From Rhodopirellula sp. P2 (GTDB lineage: Bacteria > Planctomycetota > Planctomycetia > Pirellulales > Pirellulaceae), in the NCBI RefSeq assembly GCF_028768465.1, contig NZ_CP118225.1, positions 5,437,001-5,501,000 of the forward strand: 64,000 nucleotides of DNA, given 5' to 3'. Below are positions 25,191 to 63,979 of the stretch, piece after piece; position 1 is the stretch's first letter, and every line of letters begins with the position of its first letter. The translations under genes and the position numbers were made by a program. The notes beneath the pieces are model-generated. The model was not told where the DNA came from, did no database searches, and saw only the letters and a program-made list of their open reading frames with translations.

Positions 25191-25767
25191 GATGTCAGAT
25201 GGTAGCCGTCGGCAAGCAATAGCGCTACCGACGGACATGCAAGTTCAGTCGAGATGTTGCCAACCAACCGCGGAGCGGTGACATTCGATAGCGTCGGGTT
25301 TCAACCCGACGTCTTGGGTGCCCGCACCTCAATTCAAAGCCGCGGAGCGGCGACAGATCGTTCCGAACTCGTTGCCAAATGCCGTCGCCCGCGACTGTTC
25401 GGACGCGATGTTGGCCAACCAACTGTGGGGGACGTTCGATTGACAGCTTGCGGAACTTCACTGTGGCATTGGCTTTCAGCCGGTGTTCAGCGCAATCACA
25501 GGCTGGAAGCCAACGCCACTTTTCCAAGCCCGACGAGAAACCGCCTGCGCAGGACGATTGGGAAGGAGGCTCATCGCATTCTTGCCTATTCTCGCATCAC
25601 CTTTCCTTGACCGAGACAGCACACGCCATTATCCTGTCGCAAAGTGGGGATCACCCCCGCTCCCGCCTGCCACCCCCCACACGGCTACCGAATCGATTCA
25701 TCCCCAGGATTGATTCGGATCGGCGATGATTTTTCGTCCCCATGCATTCGCTTGGAAGGAAATCGTC
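25191..25767. other. Repeat-rich intergenic stretch, no gene seen
   Basis: Holds a perfect 20-bp hairpin CGTCGGGTTTCAACCCGACG (25292-25311) flanked by two similar CGCGGAGCGG-GAC motifs at 25269 and 25341, and family D copy 1 (25462-25520). Reading frames here have no resemblance to known proteins. Confidence 0.6.
25462..25520. repeat. Family D inverted repeat, copy 1
   Basis: Left arm TGTGGCATTGGCTTTCAGCC, right arm TCACAGGCTGGAAGCCAACG then CCACT, about 20 bases apart. Other copies are at 47799 and 50577. Confidence 0.75.
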
Positions 25768-28700
25768 GTGACAGATATTTCGATGATCACGTTGTCCACT
25801 CGGTCACCGCGATCCCCATTTCCCCACCTAGCCGTTGTGGGACTTTTCTTTTTCTCTGCCCTCGGTGCCCCACCGAGTTCGGCAGAGGACGAACCCACCC
25901 CGGCCGAAGAAGTCTCTTCGGCCACGGGTTTGGGCATTGGAAACGTCAGCTATCACCGCGACGTTCTACCGGTCCTGCGAGCGAACTGCTTCGGATGCCA
26001 CCAAGCCGCCAAGCAACGCGGCGAATACGTGATGACCGACTTCGACGCGTTGGTCCGCGGCGGTGAAAGCGGCGAGGCAGCGGTCGTTCCCGGTGATGCC
26101 GACGCCAGCCCGCTGGTTCTGCTAATCACGGCACACGACGGCATTGCCGAAATGCCCAAGGCCCCACGCAAACCACTGCACGAAACAGAAGTGGCGACGA
26201 TCCAGCGCTGGATCCAACAAGGGGCGATCAACGACTCGCCCCAGCCCAGTGGCCCGCGAATCGATGCTGACCATCCGCCGGTCTACGCAGGGCCACCGAC
26301 GTTGCCCTCGATCGACCTCTCGCCCGACGGTCAAACGCTCGCCGTCGCGGGCTACCACGAGATCTGCTTGTTGGATCCCTCAACCGGTGAGATGCAAACG
26401 CGGATGGTGGGCATGTCACCACGCATCAACACGGTTCGATTCTCGCCCGATGGAAAACGCATCGCCGCAGCAGGCGGCACGCCCGGCGAACTCGGCGAGC
26501 TACAAATTTGGAACACAGCGACCGGCGAACAGGAACTTTCGAAACAGATCACATTCGACACCATCACCGGCCTGTCTTGGTCGCCGGACGGATCGAAGAT
26601 CGCAATCGGAGCCAATGACAACACCGTCCGCGCTCTCGACGCATCGTCTGGCGAACAAGTCTTGTTCCAAGGGGCCCACGAGGATTGGATTCGCGACACG
26701 GTTTTCACCAGCGATGGCAAACACCTCGTTTCCGTTGCCCGCGACATGACCTGCAAACTGACCGAAGTTGAAACCGAACGCTTCATCGACAACGTCACCT
26801 CCATCACGCCCGGGGCACTGTCCGGCGGCCTTTCCAGCGTCGCGATGCATCCGACTCGCGATGAGATCATCGTCGGAGGTGCCGATGGCGTGACCCAGGT
26901 CTACCGTGTCTTCCGACAAACCAAACGTCAGATCGGCGACGATGCGAACCTGATTCGCAACCTCCCGCGGCTCAACGGACGCATCCGGCAAGTCGTCGTG
27001 AACCCCGCTGGCACGCACTTGGCCGCCGTCGCCACGATCGACGGCCATTCCGAACTACGAGTTTGGAAGTACGACTTCACCGGTGAGTTGACTGATCTGC
27101 TGAAATCGATCCTCAGCAAACGAGTCGCCAATCGCTCCGCGAACGGGCAGAAACTTGTCGAAGAAACGATCAACGAACCCGTCACGCAGACGCTCCGCTT
27201 CGAACTGCCGGGCGCCGCCGCCTATGCCATCGAATTGACCGATGACGGAAGCGTGTTCGTCGCGGCCAACGATGGACTCATCCGCCACCTCGACCCGACC
27301 GGCAAACTGGTTCGCTCGTTCCCTGCGGTGCCGCAAAGCGATGCGACGTCCGAAGAAGCATCCCATGCTTCCGCCCCCGAGCTCAACTTCACAAGCGATG
27401 CAGCTGCTAACCAGGACGCGTCACCTGAATCGCCAGTCAACCTTTCGGAATTGGTCGGACTGTCGGTTGTCCCGGAAAGAATTTCGCTGACGTCGCCCTA
27501 CGACTACGTGCAACTGATCGCGATCGCGACATTGGCCGATGGATCGACGGTTGACGTCACGCGTCAAATCACGATCCCTGAATCAGAGGATTACGTCGCA
27601 TCGCCCAGTGGATTGATTCGTCCCCAACGCAACGCGACCAACGAAATCACCATCACGCTCGGGTCGCATCAACAAACACTCCCGATCGAGATCACCGGGC
27701 AAGCCGACTTCGACGTCGACTTCATTCGCGACGTCAATCCAGTGCTGTCTCGGTTGGGTTGCAACCAAGGCACCTGTCACGGAGCACAGAAGGGCAAGAA
27801 CGGGTTCCGGTTGTCTTTGCGAGGCTACGATCCGATCTTCGACATCCGAGCCCTGACGGACGACTTGGCCGGACGGCGGATCAACCCGGCAGCCCCCAAT
27901 GATTCCATGATGCTTCGCAAGCCGCTGGGCATCACGCCTCACGAAGGTGGCTCATTGATGAAAGAGGGCGATCCCTATCACGCGGTGCTGCATCGCTGGA
28001 TCGCCGATGGAGTCAAACTTGACTTGGATACTCCCCGTGTCGCAGCCCTGGAAGTCTTTCCCCAAAACCCGGTCGTGCAGTCCACCGACGCTCGCCAACA
28101 GGTCCGGATTGTCGCGACCTATGTCAACGGCGAATCACGCGATGTGACCCAAGAAGCATTCGTCAGCTCCGGCAACACGGAAGTCGCCACCGCTGAAGCG
28201 GGCGGCATGCTCCGTGCCGTTCGTCGCGGCGAAGCTCCCGTGCTGGCTCGATTCGAAGGCGCTTACGCCGCCACCACGCTGACCGTGATGGGCGATCGTT
28301 CCGGGTACGAACAAGCCAAGGTGGACAGCTGGGGCCGCATCGACGAATTGGTCGCTCAAAAGTGGGATCGAATGAAGATCATGCCCAGTGAAGTCGCCGA
28401 CGACGCCACCTTCCTCCGCCGCGTGCACTTGGACCTGACCGGGCTGCCCCCAACCAGCCAAACCGTTCGCGAGTTTTTGGCTGATGAAACGCCCAGCCAA
28501 CTCAAACGACAAGCCATCATCGATCGCTTGATCGGCAACGAAGACTTCGTCGAATACTGGACCAACAAGTGGGCGGATCTGTTGCAAGTCAACCGCAAGT
28601 TCCTCGGCGTTGAAGGCACGAAACTCTATCGCGATTGGATTCGAAAAGCGGTGGAAGAAAATCGCCCCTACGATGAATTCGCCTACCAAATCCTGACGGC

Positions 28701-31035
28701 ATCCGGTTCCAACCAAACCAACCCGGCCGCGTCGTACTACAAAGTCCTCCGGACCCCCGAGGACACGATGGAAAACACGACGCACCTGTTCCTCGGCATT
28801 CGCTTCAATTGCAACAAGTGCCACGATCACCCGTTTGAACGTTGGACCCAGGACCAGTACTTCGAACTGGCCGCCTACTTCGCGAAAGTTGATCGGAAGA
28901 AGGATCCCAAATCAGGCGACAAAAAGATTGGCGGCACAGCCGTCGAAGGGGCAACGCCCCTGTTTGAAATCATTGCCGATTCGGCTGATTCCGAAGTCCA
29001 ACACGGCCGCACGGGCGAGAACGTGGTGCCGTCGTTCCCTTACGAATTGCCCGGCCAAGCTGCCAATGAACCCGACCAACAACAATCACGCACCGCTTCA
29101 CCCAATCAGCAAACACTGGTCTCGCATTCCGACGATCCACCAACGCGTCGGGAAGAACTCGCCCAGTGGATGACCGATCCCAGCAACCCCTACTTCGCGC
29201 GTTCCTTTGTGAACCGAATCTGGGGATACATGACCGGCGTTGGGTTGATCGAGCCAATCGATGACATTCGAGCCGGGAACCCGCCGTCCAACCCCCAGTT
29301 GCTAGATTACCTGACGGACGAATTCATTGCCTCGAACTTCGACACCCGGCACTTGATGCGATTGATCGTCCGTTCGCGAACGTATCAGTTATCCGTCCAA
29401 TCCAACGAATGGAACGCAGACGATCACCTGAACTACTCCCATGCGACGCCGCGACGCCTGCCCGCCGAAGTCATCTTCGACGCCGTGCACTCGCTGACTG
29501 GAGCAACCAGTCACATCCCCGGGATGCCAGCTGGAACGCGTGCCGCCGCCGCAACGGACTCGGGCGTATCGCTGACGGACGGCTTCCTCGCCAACCTCGG
29601 CCGACCCGTCCGCGAAACCGCTTGTGAATGCGAACGCGGCACCGACCTGCAACTCGGTCCCGTGATGGCGTTGATCAGCGGTCCCACCATTGGCACCGCC
29701 ATCAGTGACCCCAAGAACGAACTCGAAAAAATCGTCGCGGAAAACTCCACCGACGAAGCCGTGACCGAGGAGATCTTCTTGCGAGCACTCGGTCGCCACC
29801 CGTCCGACAAAGAACGAGCCGCTTTCGCAACGATTCACGACCAAATCAAAAACGACCATGAAACGCTCGTCCAGCGATTGGCCGATGCCGAATCCACTTG
29901 GAAAGAACGTTTGCCCCAATTGGAATCAGCTCGCAAGGAGATGCTGGCGAAACTCGCCGATGACATCGCCGCTCGCCGTGACGCGATGGCAGATGAACGA
30001 GCGAAAATGCAGGCCGAGCGTCAAACGAAGATCGACGATGCCGCGAAGAAGTTCGCCGAACTGGAGGCCAAGTTGCCTGAACTGGTCGACGCTTTTTTGA
30101 CCGAAAAGAAAGCCGGCACCGAATGGCATCCGCTGACGCCGATCTCGTTGTCCGCCACCAACCAAGCGACCTTGTCCGTCCAACCTGACCGCAGCGTTTT
30201 GGCCAGCGGAAAACAAGGTAATGGATCTTATGTCGTCGAGTTTGAGACGCATTTGACCGGCATCACCGGCTTCCGCGTCGAAGCGCTCACGGATCCGAGC
30301 CTGCCACAAAACGGCCCTGGTCGAGCGGGTAACTTTGTGGTCACCGAGATCACGGTTCGAGCCAGCTCAGATGAACCAGGCTCGGATCTCGCGGCCAGCC
30401 CCAGTGAATTGCCAGCCGTCAAGATTGCCCGAGCCTCGGCCGACTTCTTGCAAAACGGTTTTAAAATCGAAAGCGCGTTTGACGGAATCGATGGCAATCA
30501 ATCAGCGTGGGCGGTCTCTGGTGCGAATGGGCATGAACACTGGGCCACGTTCCAATTCGCCAAACCAATCGAATCGGACGGCAAAACCCGCCTGAGATTT
30601 GAATTGGCTCAGAACCACAACGCCAAGGAACACCAACTCGGTCGGTTCCGAATCAGCGTGACCACAGCGAAAGGCGAGATCCCGCTGGGCCTGTCCGAAA
30701 CGTTTGCCGCCGCGGAACGAACGCCCGCTGAACAACGCAGCGACGCTCTCGCGAAGGCAATCGATCAGTACGTGTCAACGATCAATCCCCAGTTGAAAGC
30801 GGCTCGTGATGCACTCAACCAAGCCAAACGGCCGCTGCCTGAAGACAGCCAAATTGTCGAACTGCAAACACGCCGCAAACGCTTTGAAGCCGAGACACCC
30901 ATCGATCCGGCTTTGGTCCAACTGCGTGCGAACGTCGAACAATCCAAGACCCAACTGACGAACTCCCGTCTGACCGCGGCCGAAGACTTGGTCTGGGCTC
31001 TCGTCAATTCGCCGGCGTTCTTGTTCAACCACTGA
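25768..31035 (+). CDS. PSD1-type multidomain protein: cytochrome-like, WD40, BIG2, DUF1549, DUF1553
   Basis: About 1755 residues. I chose GTG 25768 because AAGGAA lies seven bases upstream and a signal peptide follows (HLAVVGLFFFSALGAPPSSA). Order: planctomycete cytochrome-C-like domain with CFGCH at 74-78; WD40 propeller about 165-520 (IDLSPDGQTLAVAGY, VRFSPDGKRIAAAGG, LSWSPDGSKIAIGANDN); BIG2-like about 560-645; CNQGTCHG at 665-672; a second BIG2-like segment; DUF1549 from about 856 (FLRRVHLDLTGLPPTS) with CNKCHDHPFERW at 1015; DUF1553 about 1124-1360; a charged coiled coil about 1365-1450; a beta-sandwich-like region; and a final coil. Paired with the DUF1501 gene downstream. Family function is unproven; heme binding is inferred from CxxCH. 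Confidence 0.93.
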   Translation: MTDISMITLSTRSPRSPFPHLAVVGLFFFSALGAPPSSAEDEPTPAEEVSSATGLGIGNVSYHRDVLPVLRANCFGCHQAAKQRGEYVMTDFDALVRGGESGEAAVVPGDADASPLVLLITAHDGIAEMPKAPRKPLHETEVATIQRWIQQGAINDSPQPSGPRIDADHPPVYAGPPTLPSIDLSPDGQTLAVAGYHEICLLDPSTGEMQTRMVGMSPRINTVRFSPDGKRIAAAGGTPGELGELQIWNTATGEQELSKQITFDTITGLSWSPDGSKIAIGANDNTVRALDASSGEQVLFQGAHEDWIRDTVFTSDGKHLVSVARDMTCKLTEVETERFIDNVTSITPGALSGGLSSVAMHPTRDEIIVGGADGVTQVYRVFRQTKRQIGDDANLIRNLPRLNGRIRQVVVNPAGTHLAAVATIDGHSELRVWKYDFTGELTDLLKSILSKRVANRSANGQKLVEETINEPVTQTLRFELPGAAAYAIELTDDGSVFVAANDGLIRHLDPTGKLVRSFPAVPQSDATSEEASHASAPELNFTSDAAANQDASPESPVNLSELVGLSVVPERISLTSPYDYVQLIAIATLADGSTVDVTRQITIPESEDYVASPSGLIRPQRNATNEITITLGSHQQTLPIEITGQADFDVDFIRDVNPVLSRLGCNQGTCHGAQKGKNGFRLSLRGYDPIFDIRALTDDLAGRRINPAAPNDSMMLRKPLGITPHEGGSLMKEGDPYHAVLHRWIADGVKLDLDTPRVAALEVFPQNPVVQSTDARQQVRIVATYVNGESRDVTQEAFVSSGNTEVATAEAGGMLRAVRRGEAPVLARFEGAYAATTLTVMGDRSGYEQAKVDSWGRIDELVAQKWDRMKIMPSEVADDATFLRRVHLDLTGLPPTSQTVREFLADETPSQLKRQAIIDRLIGNEDFVEYWTNKWADLLQVNRKFLGVEGTKLYRDWIRKAVEENRPYDEFAYQILTASGSNQTNPAASYYKVLRTPEDTMENTTHLFLGIRFNCNKCHDHPFERWTQDQYFELAAYFAKVDRKKDPKSGDKKIGGTAVEGATPLFEIIADSADSEVQHGRTGENVVPSFPYELPGQAANEPDQQQSRTASPNQQTLVSHSDDPPTRREELAQWMTDPSNPYFARSFVNRIWGYMTGVGLIEPIDDIRAGNPPSNPQLLDYLTDEFIASNFDTRHLMRLIVRSRTYQLSVQSNEWNADDHLNYSHATPRRLPAEVIFDAVHSLTGATSHIPGMPAGTRAAAATDSGVSLTDGFLANLGRPVRETACECERGTDLQLGPVMALISGPTIGTAISDPKNELEKIVAENSTDEAVTEEIFLRALGRHPSDKERAAFATIHDQIKNDHETLVQRLADAESTWKERLPQLESARKEMLAKLADDIAARRDAMADERAKMQAERQTKIDDAAKKFAELEAKLPELVDAFLTEKKAGTEWHPLTPISLSATNQATLSVQPDRSVLASGKQGNGSYVVEFETHLTGITGFRVEALTDPSLPQNGPGRAGNFVVTEITVRASSDEPGSDLAASPSELPAVKIARASADFLQNGFKIESAFDGIDGNQSAWAVSGANGHEHWATFQFAKPIESDGKTRLRFELAQNHNAKEHQLGRFRISVTTAKGEIPLGLSETFAAAERTPAEQRSDALAKAIDQYVSTINPQLKAARDALNQAKRPLPEDSQIVELQTRRKRFEAETPIDPALVQLRANVEQSKTQLTNSRLTAAEDLVWALVNSPAFLFNH

Positions 31036-58336: not shown

Positions 58337-61300
58337 TCAGTTGAACTTCCAACGCGGTGGTTCATCTCGCTGGAGCGGTTCTTGTTTCAAAACCTCCCGC
58401 AACATCGCGATGGGCAACATGCCGGATTCCATGATCGAATCGTGGAACTCACGTTCTGTCATTTCGCCAGACAACACCATCTCCCGATGCAATTGGCGGA
58501 TCTGCAAAGCCCCCAGCATGTACGCGGCTTGGTACAGCGGCGGGTAGCTCGGGCCGATGCTGCGGCGGACTTCTGCGGTGGCGTTGCGGCGTTCGAACCC
58601 AACGTTGTCGACCAAGAAATCGACGCATTGATCCGGTGAAAACCGCCCCAAATGAAAGTTCAACGAGAAAATGATCCGAGCGCACCGATGGGCTCGCCAA
58701 ACCAGCATCCCCATCCGTTCCTCAGGCGTGCGAGCAAACCCATCGTCGTACAATTTCAATTCCCAATAAACCGCCAGCCCTTCCAACCAAAACGGTGTGC
58801 TCATCGTCCGACGGTGGGGCTGGTACCGTTCGTTGCTGTACATCTGCAAATGGTGTCCTGGAATCAATTCATGATGCACGGTGGCGCGGGCGTACCCGAT
58901 ATTGTTGCCACGCAGACTTTGACGTTTGTCACTGGGGGACATCTCCGACGTGGGGAACGAAACGCTGATCACTTCCCCGCCGGTGAAGAACGGATTCACC
59001 TTTTGTCGTTCGGGAGTCATCATGATCATCCGCCAGCAATAATCGGCGAACGGTGGGACCGTGATCCAATCCCGCTTTCGCAACCAGTCGACGGATTGAT
59101 CAGCCATTTCACCGATCAAGACAGGTTGTTGTCCCGGTGCCACGTGATGATTCTTCATCCGTTCAACCGCGGCTTTCCAGTCGTCTCCCAGCCCCATGTC
59201 CTGGGCCACGCGGACCATTTCGGATCGCACAATCGCGTACTCACGTTCCGCCAACTCAATCAGTTCCTCTGGAGAATGCTCGATGAATTGACGCCGTAAT
59301 TCCAGCTCGATTCGTTCGCGGCCAACCGGTGTTCCCGACAAATCCTTTTCCACCGATGAGGTGGCCGGAGGCAGCTTCACGCCGGAGTCCTCGATCCGTT
59401 GGCGTTCGATTTGAGTTTCGACCTCGGCCGTCAACAAATGCCAATCGACTTGATCATCCAGCGACCATTCCTCGAATGGTTTGCCCTCCAATTCCAAAGC
59501 GGCCAGTTCCTCTTTCCAGCGTGGCAATTGTGCGTCCTTCTGCTCACGATCGCGACCGCGACGTGTGAAGCGACGGACGATGGAAGGCATCCAAGTCGCC
59601 TCTCGCTCGGACCATTCTTGGATTGGCGGGTACGCGTCTCCAAACGCAAACGCCGCTGCCGGTTTTGGCGATTGGAGTGAACCTCCGGCGACCAATTCGG
59701 TTTGTTTCTGTGTCAACGATTCGTCAACCGTCAGAGTCTCTTTCCACAACCGGAGGTTGTCGCCCGTTTCCTTTGCCAGATCGAGCACCCACCAGTTGAA
59801 ATCAGGGTGATAGCCTTCGTAAAAGGTTTGCCAGGACTGATACGCGCGGATCAAGTCTTCCGCGGCGTCCAGCACCGGCTGGCTGACGGCGACGGAATTT
59901 GGCTCTGTTGCTTCGATCGACAGCTGGATCATTTCGTTGAGTTGTTCCATCTCCTCAGCCATCGCTTGTCCATTGAGCGTCTTCACTCGATTGGAAAGAT
60001 CCGTCAGCGTGATCAATTGCGAGGTGAAGGGAGCCAACTCACGGAGCTTTTCCGACGAGGCCACGAGTGTTTTCAAATCAGACTTTTCGTCGTTCACCGA
60101 TACCATCAGTTCTCGAGCGATTTCCGCATCCGCGTCACTCAGCGTGTCTTCTCCCTCATTGGCGATCGCGACCTTCAGTTGGTTTTCCCAGGCGTTCAAG
60201 AACGCGGCAGTTTGTGCGAGACGCTCCTCCGCCACTCTCACGGGCAAGCGACGCTTGAGCGTTTCCAGGTCGGTTTGATAGTGATTGCGAATGTCTTTCC
60301 ATGCCGTCTGGGGTTGCAGTTTTTCCAAATCGATCAAGGCAGTGGCGACTTCCTCTGTGGTCCCGTCTGACTCGGAGGTTGACCGTTCGTTTGAACTCCC
60401 CGGCTGCAGTTTCTCGATGAAGAAATCCAGCGTGCGTCGCTTGCCATACGCTCCGCCGTCACTGTGTCCCACGCCGGGCATGACCAGCAATTCAAAGTCC
60501 TTGTCCGCTTTGATCAAAGCATCCGCGAAACGCAGAGTGGATTCCGGTGGCACGTTCGTGTCGACTTCGCCAACGATTAAGAACAGATCTCCGGTCAGGT
60601 TCGCTGCGTTGTCGATGTTGCTGCACTGGGAGTAATGGTCGCCGACCGGGTACCCCATCCATTGTTCGTTCCAAGAGGCCTTGTCCATTCGGTTGTCGTG
60701 ACAACCACAGGCGGCCACTCCGGCGTCGTAGAAGTCACCATGGAACAACAATGCGGATCCAGTGTTTTGGCCACCGGCGGAGGTGCCAAAAATACCAACT
60801 CGTTCCAAATCCATCGCAGGATGCTCTTTCGCCAGAGCCTTCATCCAGGCGATGCGATCTGGGAAACCAGCGTCCTTCAGGTTGTGCCAGCAGACATCGT
60901 GGAAAGCTTTGGATCGGTTGGCCGTTCCCATGCCATCGATCTGCACGACGATGAAGCCTGCGTCCAAGTAGGCACGGTGCCAAGGTGCGGAACGAAACGA
61001 CTTTGGAACGTGCGAATCATGAGGCCCCGCGTAGATGTACTCCACCACGGGATACTTTTTGTCAGCGGCGGGATCATAGTCCTCCGGGAAACACGCCAGT
61101 CCCCAAATGTCGGTTTTGCCATCGCGGCCTTTGGCAGAAAACACTTGCGGCAGATTCAGATCGGCGTCTTCGGGAGTGACCGTCGCTTGGGCCAATGTTT
61201 GTATCAGTTCGCCATCGGCGGAACGCAGTTCGTGAACCGGCAACGCATCGACACGAGAATGAGTGACGACCAAACGACTTCGGTTGGGTGAGAAAGTGGC

Positions 61301-62833
61301 GGTGTGAGTGCCATCGCCATCGGTCATCAGCGTGAAGTTCTCACCACTGAAATCAACGCGGGCGTAGTGCTTCAAATATGGGTCTTGGTCCTCAAGCACG
61401 CCACTGACGACCAAATCGAGGACGCGATTTTCTTCGTCAATGTGATCGATTGCACGCACAACAAACTCGCCCTGCGTGATGGGTTGAATCTCGTTCTCGC
61501 CCGACAGATCGACCAAGTAGAGATGTTGATGGCCATCCTTCTCACTGACCCAAATGACTTCGTCGCTGTCTTCGAGGTAACTCCAACGTGGCAAGTCCGT
61601 TTTATGGGTGGTCCAAATGAACGTTTCCGATTGCTCATCGATCACCGTGTTGACTTCGCCAGACAACAGATCGACATCGAACAAACGGAATTGTTGATGC
61701 CCACGTTCGGTGACCGCCAACAGGGCACGGTGAGGCCCCACGAAGCGCAGGTTCCAAAACCGCTGGGACATCCATGGCAAATCCAATTCCACGGCCTCGC
61801 CGGTTTCCGTATGGAACGCCAGCAGGCGGGTCTCATCGACAGGATCACCTGGTAATAAATACGGTCGCGATTTGAGCACCGCGCGACCGCCTGCTTTGGG
61901 CGACGATTCGACCAAGTGAACCGGTTGGGTTGGGTAGGGAATGACGGCTCGGACCACCAACGCGGTTCCATCAGGCGACCATTGTGGTGATTCCAGTTTC
62001 AAAGGTTCAGCCGATTCCCCCCCGCGATCGCCGAACGATTCCAACAATTGCGATTGTTCGATCAAGGTCTTCCACGGGGTCGTTTCTTCGTCGGGACTCG
62101 CATGTTGCAATTGCAAACGTCCTTCCGTCAAGCGAGCGATCACCTTGTCGTTGTCAGGTGCGGGAACCCCTGCGGTCCAATCCCCCTCGCTTCGAAAATC
62201 GCGACGTCGGCGTCCACGGCGTTCCGGTTCGGCCTGAGTCGCTACCGCGGGCTTGGAAACTTCCAATCGTGTCGGTTCGATGTCCGCAACGAAGTATCCC
62301 AATTTGGTTTTGTCTTTGCCAATGACTTCCCAGACATGACCGGCAAAGGTCGTGCGGACAAAGGTCTCGCCCACTGGGATCGATTCGTATGGGACACGCT
62401 TGCCACCGCTGTCCACCCAGAACAACTGCAACGCCTGCCCGGTTTGGTTGACAAACGTGATCTCGGTGTGGGCCTCGGACGATCCACCTGATCGCGGCGT
62501 GCGACCGCCCTTCAGCGTCACTTCGCGAACATTGGATTTGTCACCCGGTTCGACTTCCGTCATCTCGCCGGTCGTGGCATCCACCCGAATGCCGGTGAAC
62601 GAACCATCGGCGTTCTGACGCCGGAACCAGAACGAATCGTCACTGGTCCAATGTGGCGTCAATGTCTGCTGGATGACGCGTGGACGCTGCGCCGTTGCCT
62701 CCAGTGCGTTCGCTGTCGATCCAAGCGTCACGAAGACGCCCCCAAGCAACAAGGCGGCAAGGTGAAGGCCAGCGTCCGCAGGCAGTCGCTCGACCAAAAT
62801 TCCGCGCATCCAATTGTGAAACGGCAATTTCAT
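58337..62833 (-). CDS. Secreted fusion: VHL beta-like domain, DPP4-like prolyl peptidase, DUF885 metallopeptidase
   Basis: 1498 residues. Signal: AGLHLAALLLGGVFVTLGST. Residues about 118-188 look like the pVHL beta domain: ITFVNQTGQALQLFW, VPYESIPVGETFV, TTFAGHVWEVIG. A gapless alignment to human pVHL 88-117 puts Trp139, Tyr149, Thr162, His166 and Trp168 on the hydroxyproline pocket residues Trp88, Tyr98, Ser111, His115 and Trp117. Residues about 210-620 form the S9 beta-propeller; the catalytic domain has GIFGTSAGGQNTGS (Ser684), GEVDTNVPPES (Asp757) and PGVGHSDGG (His790). Residues about 870-1490 are DUF885 with HHELIPGHHLQ (His1321). Secreted or periplasmic. Divergent from the hydroxyproline epimerase gene. 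Confidence 0.9.
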   Translation of the reverse strand: MKLPFHNWMRGILVERLPADAGLHLAALLLGGVFVTLGSTANALEATAQRPRVIQQTLTPHWTSDDSFWFRRQNADGSFTGIRVDATTGEMTEVEPGDKSNVREVTLKGGRTPRSGGSSEAHTEITFVNQTGQALQLFWVDSGGKRVPYESIPVGETFVRTTFAGHVWEVIGKDKTKLGYFVADIEPTRLEVSKPAVATQAEPERRGRRRRDFRSEGDWTAGVPAPDNDKVIARLTEGRLQLQHASPDEETTPWKTLIEQSQLLESFGDRGGESAEPLKLESPQWSPDGTALVVRAVIPYPTQPVHLVESSPKAGGRAVLKSRPYLLPGDPVDETRLLAFHTETGEAVELDLPWMSQRFWNLRFVGPHRALLAVTERGHQQFRLFDVDLLSGEVNTVIDEQSETFIWTTHKTDLPRWSYLEDSDEVIWVSEKDGHQHLYLVDLSGENEIQPITQGEFVVRAIDHIDEENRVLDLVVSGVLEDQDPYLKHYARVDFSGENFTLMTDGDGTHTATFSPNRSRLVVTHSRVDALPVHELRSADGELIQTLAQATVTPEDADLNLPQVFSAKGRDGKTDIWGLACFPEDYDPAADKKYPVVEYIYAGPHDSHVPKSFRSAPWHRAYLDAGFIVVQIDGMGTANRSKAFHDVCWHNLKDAGFPDRIAWMKALAKEHPAMDLERVGIFGTSAGGQNTGSALLFHGDFYDAGVAACGCHDNRMDKASWNEQWMGYPVGDHYSQCSNIDNAANLTGDLFLIVGEVDTNVPPESTLRFADALIKADKDFELLVMPGVGHSDGGAYGKRRTLDFFIEKLQPGSSNERSTSESDGTTEEVATALIDLEKLQPQTAWKDIRNHYQTDLETLKRRLPVRVAEERLAQTAAFLNAWENQLKVAIANEGEDTLSDADAEIARELMVSVNDEKSDLKTLVASSEKLRELAPFTSQLITLTDLSNRVKTLNGQAMAEEMEQLNEMIQLSIEATEPNSVAVSQPVLDAAEDLIRAYQSWQTFYEGYHPDFNWWVLDLAKETGDNLRLWKETLTVDESLTQKQTELVAGGSLQSPKPAAAFAFGDAYPPIQEWSEREATWMPSIVRRFTRRGRDREQKDAQLPRWKEELAALELEGKPFEEWSLDDQVDWHLLTAEVETQIERQRIEDSGVKLPPATSSVEKDLSGTPVGRERIELELRRQFIEHSPEELIELAEREYAIVRSEMVRVAQDMGLGDDWKAAVERMKNHHVAPGQQPVLIGEMADQSVDWLRKRDWITVPPFADYCWRMIMMTPERQKVNPFFTGGEVISVSFPTSEMSPSDKRQSLRGNNIGYARATVHHELIPGHHLQMYSNERYQPHRRTMSTPFWLEGLAVYWELKLYDDGFARTPEERMGMLVWRAHRCARIIFSLNFHLGRFSPDQCVDFLVDNVGFERRNATAEVRRSIGPSYPPLYQAAYMLGALQIRQLHREMVLSGEMTEREFHDSIMESGMLPIAMLREVLKQEPLQRDEPPRWKFN

Positions 62834-63043
62834 GTTTATATGTTCTGTGGAATCGTGCGTGTCAGTGGGCGACGCCCCCGCAAATCGGGCTCTTCATTGC
62901 CCCCACTCCATTGAGCCTTTGAAATCCATTGATCTCGCAGGATGCGATCCACTTTAGTCAAGCAGATGACGGCAATGCGGGTTGTCGATTGATTCACCGC
63001 ACAATGGCGAAATCTTGCACCTACTCTCTTTGATTTGGGAACG

Positions 63044-63979
63044 ATGATGCTGCCTGCACGTGTACGGGTGTTGGATTCTCACACCGGTGGGGAACCGACG
63101 CGAATGGTGATTGGTTTGGAAGACACGCTGGTCGGCCCAACGATGGCGGACCGTCGTCTGCACCTCCGGCAGAAATTCGCAACGCTGGGAGCTCCGATCG
63201 TCAACGAACCTCGCGGCAACGACATCATCGTTGGTGCGTGGATCTGCCAACCAATCGACCCGAGTTGTTTCGCGGGGGTGGTGTTTTTCAACAACGTGGG
63301 TGTGTTGCAGATGTGCGGGCACGCAACGATCGGGGTGGTCGCGACGCTGGCGTGGCAAGGCAAACTGACGCCGGGCATCCATCGAATGGAAACTCCCGTC
63401 GGGATCATCGAAGTCGAATTGCATGCGGACGGCAAAACGGTCTCGTTCGAAAACGTCCCAAGCAAATGCTATCAAGCAGCTGCTCGCGTCGAGGTTCCTG
63501 GTTCGACGTCACTGGCCAACCGCTTTGTCACCGGCGACATCGCCTACGGAGGCAACTGGTTTTACTTGGTCGACGATCACGGGTTGGATCTCGAACTCAG
63601 CAACGTCGATCAGTTGATGGCAGCCACTCTGAGCATCAAAGCTGCACTCCGCGATCAAGGAGTCACCGGCGAAGACGGGGCAGAGATCGACCACGTCGAA
63701 TTGGTCGGCCCCTCGGATCACGCCGATGCGAAGAACTTTGTGCTGTGCCCTGGCAACGCCTACGACCGATCGCCATGTGGCACCGGAACCAGTGCCAAGG
63801 TGGCTTGTTTAGCAGCGGCCGGCAAACTCGAAGTCGGCCAAACGTTTCGCCAGGAATCGATCACGGGCAGTTGTTTTGATGCCAGCTATCGATCGGACGA
63901 GTCCGGGAACGTGATCGCTCGCCTCACCGGATCAGCAGCAGTCATCGCTGAAACAACGCTGCTCTTCGAGCGTGATTGA
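63044..63979 (+). CDS. 4-hydroxyproline 2-epimerase (proline racemase family)
   Basis: 311 residues from ATG 63044 (GGGA upstream; a TTG at 63035 is in frame). Cytoplasmic, cofactor-free. It epimerises trans-4-hydroxy-L-proline to cis-4-hydroxy-D-proline through two cysteines. Both are seen: LQMCGHATIG (Cys91) and RSPCGTGTSA (Cys245), which rules out the trans-3-hydroxyproline dehydratase branch, where the second is Thr. DSHTGGEPTRMV is the 4HypE version (proline racemases usually have HTMGEPTR). The remaining hydroxyproline-catabolic genes would lie beyond the window. Confidence 0.9.
   Translation: MMLPARVRVLDSHTGGEPTRMVIGLEDTLVGPTMADRRLHLRQKFATLGAPIVNEPRGNDIIVGAWICQPIDPSCFAGVVFFNNVGVLQMCGHATIGVVATLAWQGKLTPGIHRMETPVGIIEVELHADGKTVSFENVPSKCYQAAARVEVPGSTSLANRFVTGDIAYGGNWFYLVDDHGLDLELSNVDQLMAATLSIKAALRDQGVTGEDGAEIDHVELVGPSDHADAKNFVLCPGNAYDRSPCGTGTSAKVACLAAAGKLEVGQTFRQESITGSCFDASYRSDESGNVIARLTGSAAVIAETTLLFERD

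Follow-up and report, generated by a model that had tools for sequence, protein, structure and literature searches.

In this study, we analysed a 64,000-nucleotide stretch (the window) of the 7.29 Mb genome of the planctomycete Rhodopirellula sp. P2, which holds an open reading frame (ORF) for a 1498-residue protein (58337-62833, minus strand) and, next to it, an epimerase ORF (63035/63044-63979, plus strand). We demonstrate that this protein, an exported-looking peptidase, contains a true VHL beta domain, homologous to the beta domain of the animal protein pVHL, and that the residues with which pVHL reads hydroxyproline (Hyp) are conserved in it. A tie to Hyp catabolism in several phyla is supported for the S9 peptidase family to which the protein belongs, and not for the VHL domain as such. 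The best explanation, to which we give somewhat better than even chances, is that the VHL domain is a Hyp-directed substrate tether.

A VHL beta domain with a conserved hydroxyproline pocket

The protein begins with an export-signal-like segment (residues 1-44; 62702-62833, minus strand), recognised by eye from a hydrophobic run ending in ANALEA (residues 41-46), and continues with a short propeller piece, the VHL beta domain (residues 118-192; 62258-62482, minus strand), the rest of the propeller, an S9 catalytic domain and a DUF885 domain. The initial annotation had proposed a VHL domain within a peptidase, and this is borne out by profile searches and by fold. PF01847, with a gathering cut-off of 21 bits, matches the window domain at 20.9 bits in a six-frame search, at 21.2 bits with neighbours and at 21.4 bits as an isolated segment; when the protein is scanned at full length, the score is 15.8 bits, below the cut-off. 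All 31 rows of alignment A3, which holds the window domain and 30 relatives, are matched at E 0.01 or better, and the A3 family profile in turn reaches pVHL at about 3e-11 among 177,635 Protein Data Bank sequences. The family profile against pVHL, together with an alignment, confirms the gap-free pairing of residues 139-168 with pVHL 88-117. Overlaid on pVHL as the initial annotation had suggested, the modelled domain agrees in fold, a seven-stranded beta sandwich, and superimposes on pVHL with capped Hyp (4awj) at 1.4 Å over 78 residues (VIA-align re-ranking covered the best 1000 Foldseek chains only).

Thus, the domain shares with the human VHL beta domain (1LM8/1LQB/4AWJ) the fold, an uninterrupted pocket stretch and four of five pocket residues. 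It differs in lacking the elongin C-binding alpha domain, since a low-confidence linker and then the propeller follow it, and in sitting in an exported-looking bacterial peptidase. Human pVHL scores 51.6 bits with a profile of S9-type VHL domains versus 47.7 bits with one of other bacterial VHL domains; profiles from five random subsets of 18 S9 rows give 48.0-53.4 bits, with no clear preference for either type. VHL domains of bacteria have been recorded before, both in Pfam and in one paper (PMC9002001; here and below, what is said of cited papers refers to the available parts of their text). The protein of Litorilituus sediminis described there is likewise a bacterial, predicted secreted VHL beta domain, which the paper treats as a tumour suppressor; neither a peptidase fusion nor Hyp catabolism is mentioned in the available part.

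The Hyp site of pVHL consists of Trp88, Tyr98, His110, Ser111, His115 and Trp117, with the hydroxyl held by Ser111 and His115 (PMC9528729). In the corresponding stretch of the window domain (W139-W168; 62330-62419, minus strand), W139, Y149, T162, H166 and W168 stand at the places of W88, Y98, S111, H115 and W117, exactly as first annotated, the exchange of Ser for Thr included. Among 46 VHL-S9 domains, W88, Y98 and H115 are each kept in 44 and W117 in all 46, and position 111 is Thr or Ser in 45 (Thr in 44, Ser in 1), Thr being the family rule. By conservation the five pocket columns rank 2-6 of 64, with N78 alone ranking higher. The duplicate of the window, L064, was removed from pocket counts and trees, and L217, whose VHL domain is C-terminal, was kept out of A2. 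In a second set of 31 domains, from loci picked by S9 signatures and not by VHL, W88, Y98 and H115 are kept in all 31, position 111 in all 31 (29 Thr, 2 Ser) and W117 in 30. Here the pocket columns rank 2, 3, 4, 6 and 7 of 79, a rank sum matched by 1 of 200,000 random draws, which is no strict probability as the rows are related.

This conservation bears on whether the domain reads Hyp at all. The VHL-like sandwich could be a general binder of peptides, of proline (polyproline II) or of another ligand, or a spacer, with no discrimination between Hyp and Pro. Such a role would suit the occurrence of VHL on sulfatases (L165 and, in the window genome itself, L065), on a SASA esterase (L099) and on a metallopeptidase-like protein (L124), as well as the loss of H115 in 8 of 18 VHL domains not fused to S9 and the Thr in place of Ser111; moreover, S9 modules with VHL are linked to 4-hydroxyproline epimerase (4HypE) genes no more often than those without. 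In S9 fusions, nevertheless, few positions of the domain are as conserved as the residues binding the Hyp ring and hydroxyl, H115 being lost in 2 of 46 (Fisher p 3e-4 against the domains not fused to S9; related rows), and the S9 family has its own tie to Hyp catabolism, and so we consider a general binder possible but on balance improbable. The pocket homology to pVHL would also fit a domain that reads Hyp which a prolyl hydroxylase forms in proteins of the bacterium itself, in signalling or quality control as in animals. This we hold to be very improbable, given that the protein looks exported, by eye, and that no PF13640 oxygenase was found in the window genome at E 0.001, in a search that was positive in 2 of 14 control genomes (other 2-oxoglutarate oxygenase families were not searched).

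Peptidase modules and hydroxyproline genes of the window genome

The propeller remainder and S9 catalytic domain (residues 284-809; 60407-61984, minus strand) exceed the Pfam cut-offs for DPPIV_N (86.6 bits) and Peptidase_S9 (161.1 bits). Top Foldseek matches of this part are bacterial DPP4s and prolyl tripeptidyl aminopeptidase, with which (2D5L, 5YP1) it has in common the propeller and an alpha/beta-hydrolase domain with a Ser-Asp-His triad. The DPP4-like peptidase of the initial annotation is therefore present with its triad intact, although at S685/D758/H790 and not at S684/D757. Its designation as a proline peptidase is not supported. At the sites of human W659, Y662 and Y666, which we take to form the S1 proline pocket of DPP4, N714, D717 and W721 are found, each in 30 of 30 rows, and without these aromatic residues proline specificity lacks a basis; the altered S1 site could equally have been remodelled to take a polar ring, for example that of Hyp. 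The signature CGCHDNRMDK (residues 709-718; 60680-60709, minus strand), conserved in 28-30 of 30 rows per column, lies at part of this pocket. The longer CGCHDNRMDKxxWNEQWM (60656-60709) is nearly invariant and supplants part of S1, and its Cys-His-Asp content might form a metal or disulfide site. In contrast to 2D5L and 5YP1, the window protein combines this signature with a VHL domain inserted in the propeller part and a fused DUF885. In DPP4, a Glu-Glu pair anchors the free N terminus of the substrate; in the alignment alone, an EE pair lies upstream of WSPD in some of 12 printed rows and is absent from others, with no single clear column.

The DUF885 metallopeptidase predicted for the same polypeptide was found (residues 862-1481; 58391-60250, minus strand), with PF05960 at 148.4 bits, over its cut-off, and HELIPGHH at residues 1321-1328 matching HExxxGH, presumably the motif expected of DUF885 peptidases.

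Across a divergent intergenic region (62834-63043), the 210-bp length of which holds with the ATG at 63044, lies the gene for a two-cysteine 4HypE-like protein (63044-63979, plus strand). Its assignment as a two-cysteine 4-hydroxyproline epimerase stands with respect to both cysteines (MCGH, DRSPCGTG) and to PF05544 (265.5 bits), of which it is the sole match in the genome at E 0.001, but its scores with the NCBIfam 4HypE models, 361.3 (cut-off 450), 336.7 (442) and 180.9 (376) bits, remain under the equivalog cut-offs. Two of these models score highest for it, and the proline racemase model reaches 175.9 bits.

Hyp catabolism relies on 4HypE, D-Hyp dehydrogenase, a deaminase of the dihydrodipicolinate synthase (DHDPS) family and alpha-ketoglutaric semialdehyde (KGSA) dehydrogenase. 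Right after 63979, visual inspection of ORFs of at least 200 aa over ~12 kb, without a profile scan, revealed no further genes for Hyp catabolism or transport. The partner genes of this genome lie ~1.66 Mb from the epimerase, where a DAO-type dehydrogenase and a DHDPS-family enzyme (C1:3838935-3841113) belong to a cluster extending from C1:3838935 to ~3842000; both are 67-68% identical, and the AraC gene product 56%, to those of congener G301. In G301, 4HypE lies between DHDPS and DAO, and in the window genome only ~25 bp separate these two matches. With 4HypE missing from this AraC-DHDPS-DAO cluster (L281:5436-8529) and the sole copy located beside the VHL peptidase, 4HypE seems to have been relocated or replaced.

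Distribution of the fusion and linkage to hydroxyproline catabolism

At E 0.01, 46 of 294 planctomycete genomes have a PF01847 match, and of the 66 places matched in this sample 40 were examined as loci, 26 of them with VHL and S9 in one ORF. The VHL-S9 fusion occurs in at least 27 of the 294 genomes and also in Verrucomicrobiota, Armatimonadota and a Poribacteria bin. Among 80 named S9 relatives, VHL is present in 30, from these phyla, the Poribacteria bin and an unclassified bin, and in none of 29 Bacteroidota loci. The VHL state changes 6 times on a tree of 126 S9 domains, from which rows with E over 1e-150 or a span under 400, L103 included, were left out. In L217 and L103, VHL is C-terminal to the same S9 family, which suggests from domain order that the two were joined more than once. 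The S9-DUF885 protein of G326 yielded no VHL match even at maximum search sensitivity.

VHL is also found in other company. A 1047-aa tandem sulfatase-VHL-sulfatase of the window genome (C1, L065:2941-6084, minus strand) has PF01847 at 22.2 bits and Ala at the place of His115. VHL is fused to an M90/ATLF-type metallopeptidase-like domain at L124:9330-11177 and to a SASA-type esterase at L099:8838-10598, and the ~400-aa proteins of L117, L125 and L098 have VHL at their C terminus and match nothing else in Pfam. A plasmid collection gave two weak cyanobacterial matches.

For the 80 named S9 relatives, a 4HypE-type gene lies within the 10-kb flanks (shorter at contig ends) in 20; both catalytic cysteines are present in 19 of these, and in L226, cut at its start, the second is visible. 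Among relatives of the window, 4HypE is found at 7 of the 20 loci of the family (G303, G326 and five of the window's clade) and at none of the 20 loci that hold other S9 paralogues. The latter come from planctomycete relatives with ~6-7 kb each side, less in a few, and are comparable to the 20 family loci and not to the Bacteroidota loci with their 10-kb flanks. One of the paralogue loci, L258 (G326:C111), also carries a second S9 family member, with its VHL match split over two reading frames.

In Bacteroidota, clusters of AraC, DHDPS-family, aldehyde dehydrogenase (ALDH), 4HypE and DAO genes accompany S9, often with DUF885, in 14 of 16 linked loci (gene clusters named from one representative each by Pfam and NCBIfam). 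In L232 and L240 the flank stops short of AraC and, in L232, also of DHDPS. One Bacteroidota 4HypE representative scores 591 bits against a cut-off of 376. A cluster represented by GH127 beta-L-arabinofuranosidase is present in 8 linked Bacteroidota loci, and some have clusters represented by GH43, an alpha-L-arabinofuranosidase C-terminal domain or DUF5695. Since GH127 acts on the arabinose chains carried by extensin Hyp (PMC4454575, PMC10850190), these neighbours of S9 point to hydroxyproline-rich glycoproteins as substrate in the linked Bacteroidota; for planctomycetes this would be an extrapolation. The Bifidobacterium GH127/GH121 extensin-arabinoside system shares GH127 with the 8 loci and differs in that it is described only as removing sugars; the available part of PMC10850190 names neither a peptidase nor Hyp catabolism. 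The DUF5695 protein, recurrent in Bacteroidota Hyp/arabinosidase clusters (e.g. L241:15179-17884), is a candidate enzyme for Hyp-linked sugars.

VHL-S9 genes adjoin 4HypE in the window and five congeners (divergently, as one event) and in G303 (same strand, 4-bp overlap), lie beside 4HypE-DAO in L226 (Verrucomicrobiales) and L245 (Armatimonadota), and lie near it in L211 (Verrucomicrobiales). G326 and L185 have the S9-4HypE pair without VHL. A long, fully supported branch parts the Bacteroidota from the planctomycete type in the 4HypE tree, so that the S9-4HypE linkage probably had more than one origin. Linkage of such fusions to Hyp genes in other genomes, on which the initial annotation had staked its proposal, is thus seen for the S9 family in several phyla. 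A close link between 4HypE and the VHL domain as such was rejected, as the linkage goes with the S9 family. Co-occurrence across planctomycetes, also anticipated, is weak: VHL-S9 is present in 27 of 294 genomes, counting only those with a locus examined, and both VHL-S9 and PF05544 in 10 (Fisher p 0.012), and at the level of genomes VHL is present in 46, PF05544 in 50 and both in 15 (Fisher p 0.005), these tests ignoring kinship.

The same counts bear on another alternative, which concerns the S9 part and is compatible with a general binder in the VHL part: that the S9-DUF885 protein degrades peptides in general, as an ordinary scavenger, and stands next to 4HypE because genes of amino-acid catabolism cluster loosely. 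Peptidases of the DUF885 and S9 types occur widely, and 63 of 73 VHL-S9 rows have no 4HypE nearby. Against this, the other paralogues show no such linkage, and in the family it repeats with two distant 4HypE groups and in four phyla; we judge scavenging alone to be unlikely. The rival explanations overlap, and their odds need not add to 1 with those of the best explanation.

A proposed hydroxyproline-directed tether

Returning to the tether, the protein would be an exported peptidase in three parts, from an S9 family with a role in Hyp utilisation. We infer Hyp binding, and likewise the substrate, cleavage site, export and regulation of the enzyme, from the features described above. The VHL domain would bind trans-4-hydroxyproline residues of the substrate through the pVHL-type pocket, with Thr replacing Ser111, and keep Hyp-rich peptides, from algal or plant extensin-like glycoproteins and perhaps collagen, near the S9 and DUF885 active sites, which would yield small Hyp peptides or free Hyp. 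Within the cell, the neighbouring 4HypE would epimerise Hyp, and the product would go on to the D-amino acid dehydrogenase and the DHDPS-family enzyme, whose genes lie at another place in the genome. Of the tether as initially annotated, the VHL domain, its conserved pocket and an S9 family with Hyp genes stand, and linkage through the VHL domain, proline specificity and the downstream genes are not supported.

Several observations weigh against a tether. Beyond the Thr at position 111, the pocket residues may be retained for folding, since they are equalled in conservation by N78 and, among the domains of the second set, also by G114, and one VHL-S9 protein (G317) has a degenerate pocket. In the S9 tree set, 10 of 73 rows with N-terminal VHL are linked to 4HypE versus 18 of 52 without, so that 63 of the 73 have no epimerase in the stretch examined; the same is true of all 40 loci from the phylum sample. 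A PF05544 match at 1e-20 is missing from 17 of 27 VHL-S9 genomes in that sample, several of them incomplete bins. The S9 peptidases of Bacteroidota Hyp operons carry no VHL (0 of 29 loci), and VHL is therefore not required for the task. Further, the S1 region is unlike that of proline-specific DPP4s, the window 4HypE misses curated equivalog cut-offs, and glycosylated Hyp could hardly fit the pocket unless the sugar is removed first.

The enzymes of Hyp catabolic clusters, namely 4HypE, D-Hyp dehydrogenase, DHDPS-family deaminase and KGSA dehydrogenase (PMC7883544), are the sets that adjoin the S9 family in Bacteroidota and to which the AraC-DHDPS-DAO genes of the window genome correspond, except that its 4HypE lies outside the set and adjoins the VHL-S9-DUF885 gene. 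In the Colwellia collagen utilisation cluster (PMC7883544), peptidases are likewise clustered with 4HypE and Hyp catabolism; these are an M9 collagenase and dipeptidases, the S9 family and VHL being unnamed in the available part. Among the matches listed from a literature search of titles and abstract starts (subscription papers and preprints lay outside its scope), neither the VHL-S9 fusion nor its link to Hyp was found.

Oxygen sensing in animals centres on the reading of Hyp by pVHL, and the HIF/PHD/VHL pathway was not found in choanoflagellates or other protists, according to work cited in PMC9618697. A bacterial family with the same pocket would give bacterial VHL domains a function: judging from these sequences, bacteria may use a VHL-peptidase module to feed on hydroxyproline-rich proteins. 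If so, such domains would be a candidate source for the animal VHL domain and a tool to capture Hyp peptides, and the CGCHDNR-signature peptidase family a possible marker of bacterial Hyp use. A bolder version, which we think quite unlikely, is that the VHL fold was at its root a bacterial Hyp-reading module of secreted enzymes feeding on Hyp-rich proteins, later adopted by animals for oxygen sensing, and that the S9 partner may have rebuilt a Hyp-accepting S1 site (CGCHDNRMDK), the whole enzyme being Hyp-specific.

Elsewhere in the window, positions 25726-31035 (plus strand) encode a 1769-aa protein with PSCyt1, WD40-type repeats, PSCyt2 and PSD1, a planctomycete cytochrome type.

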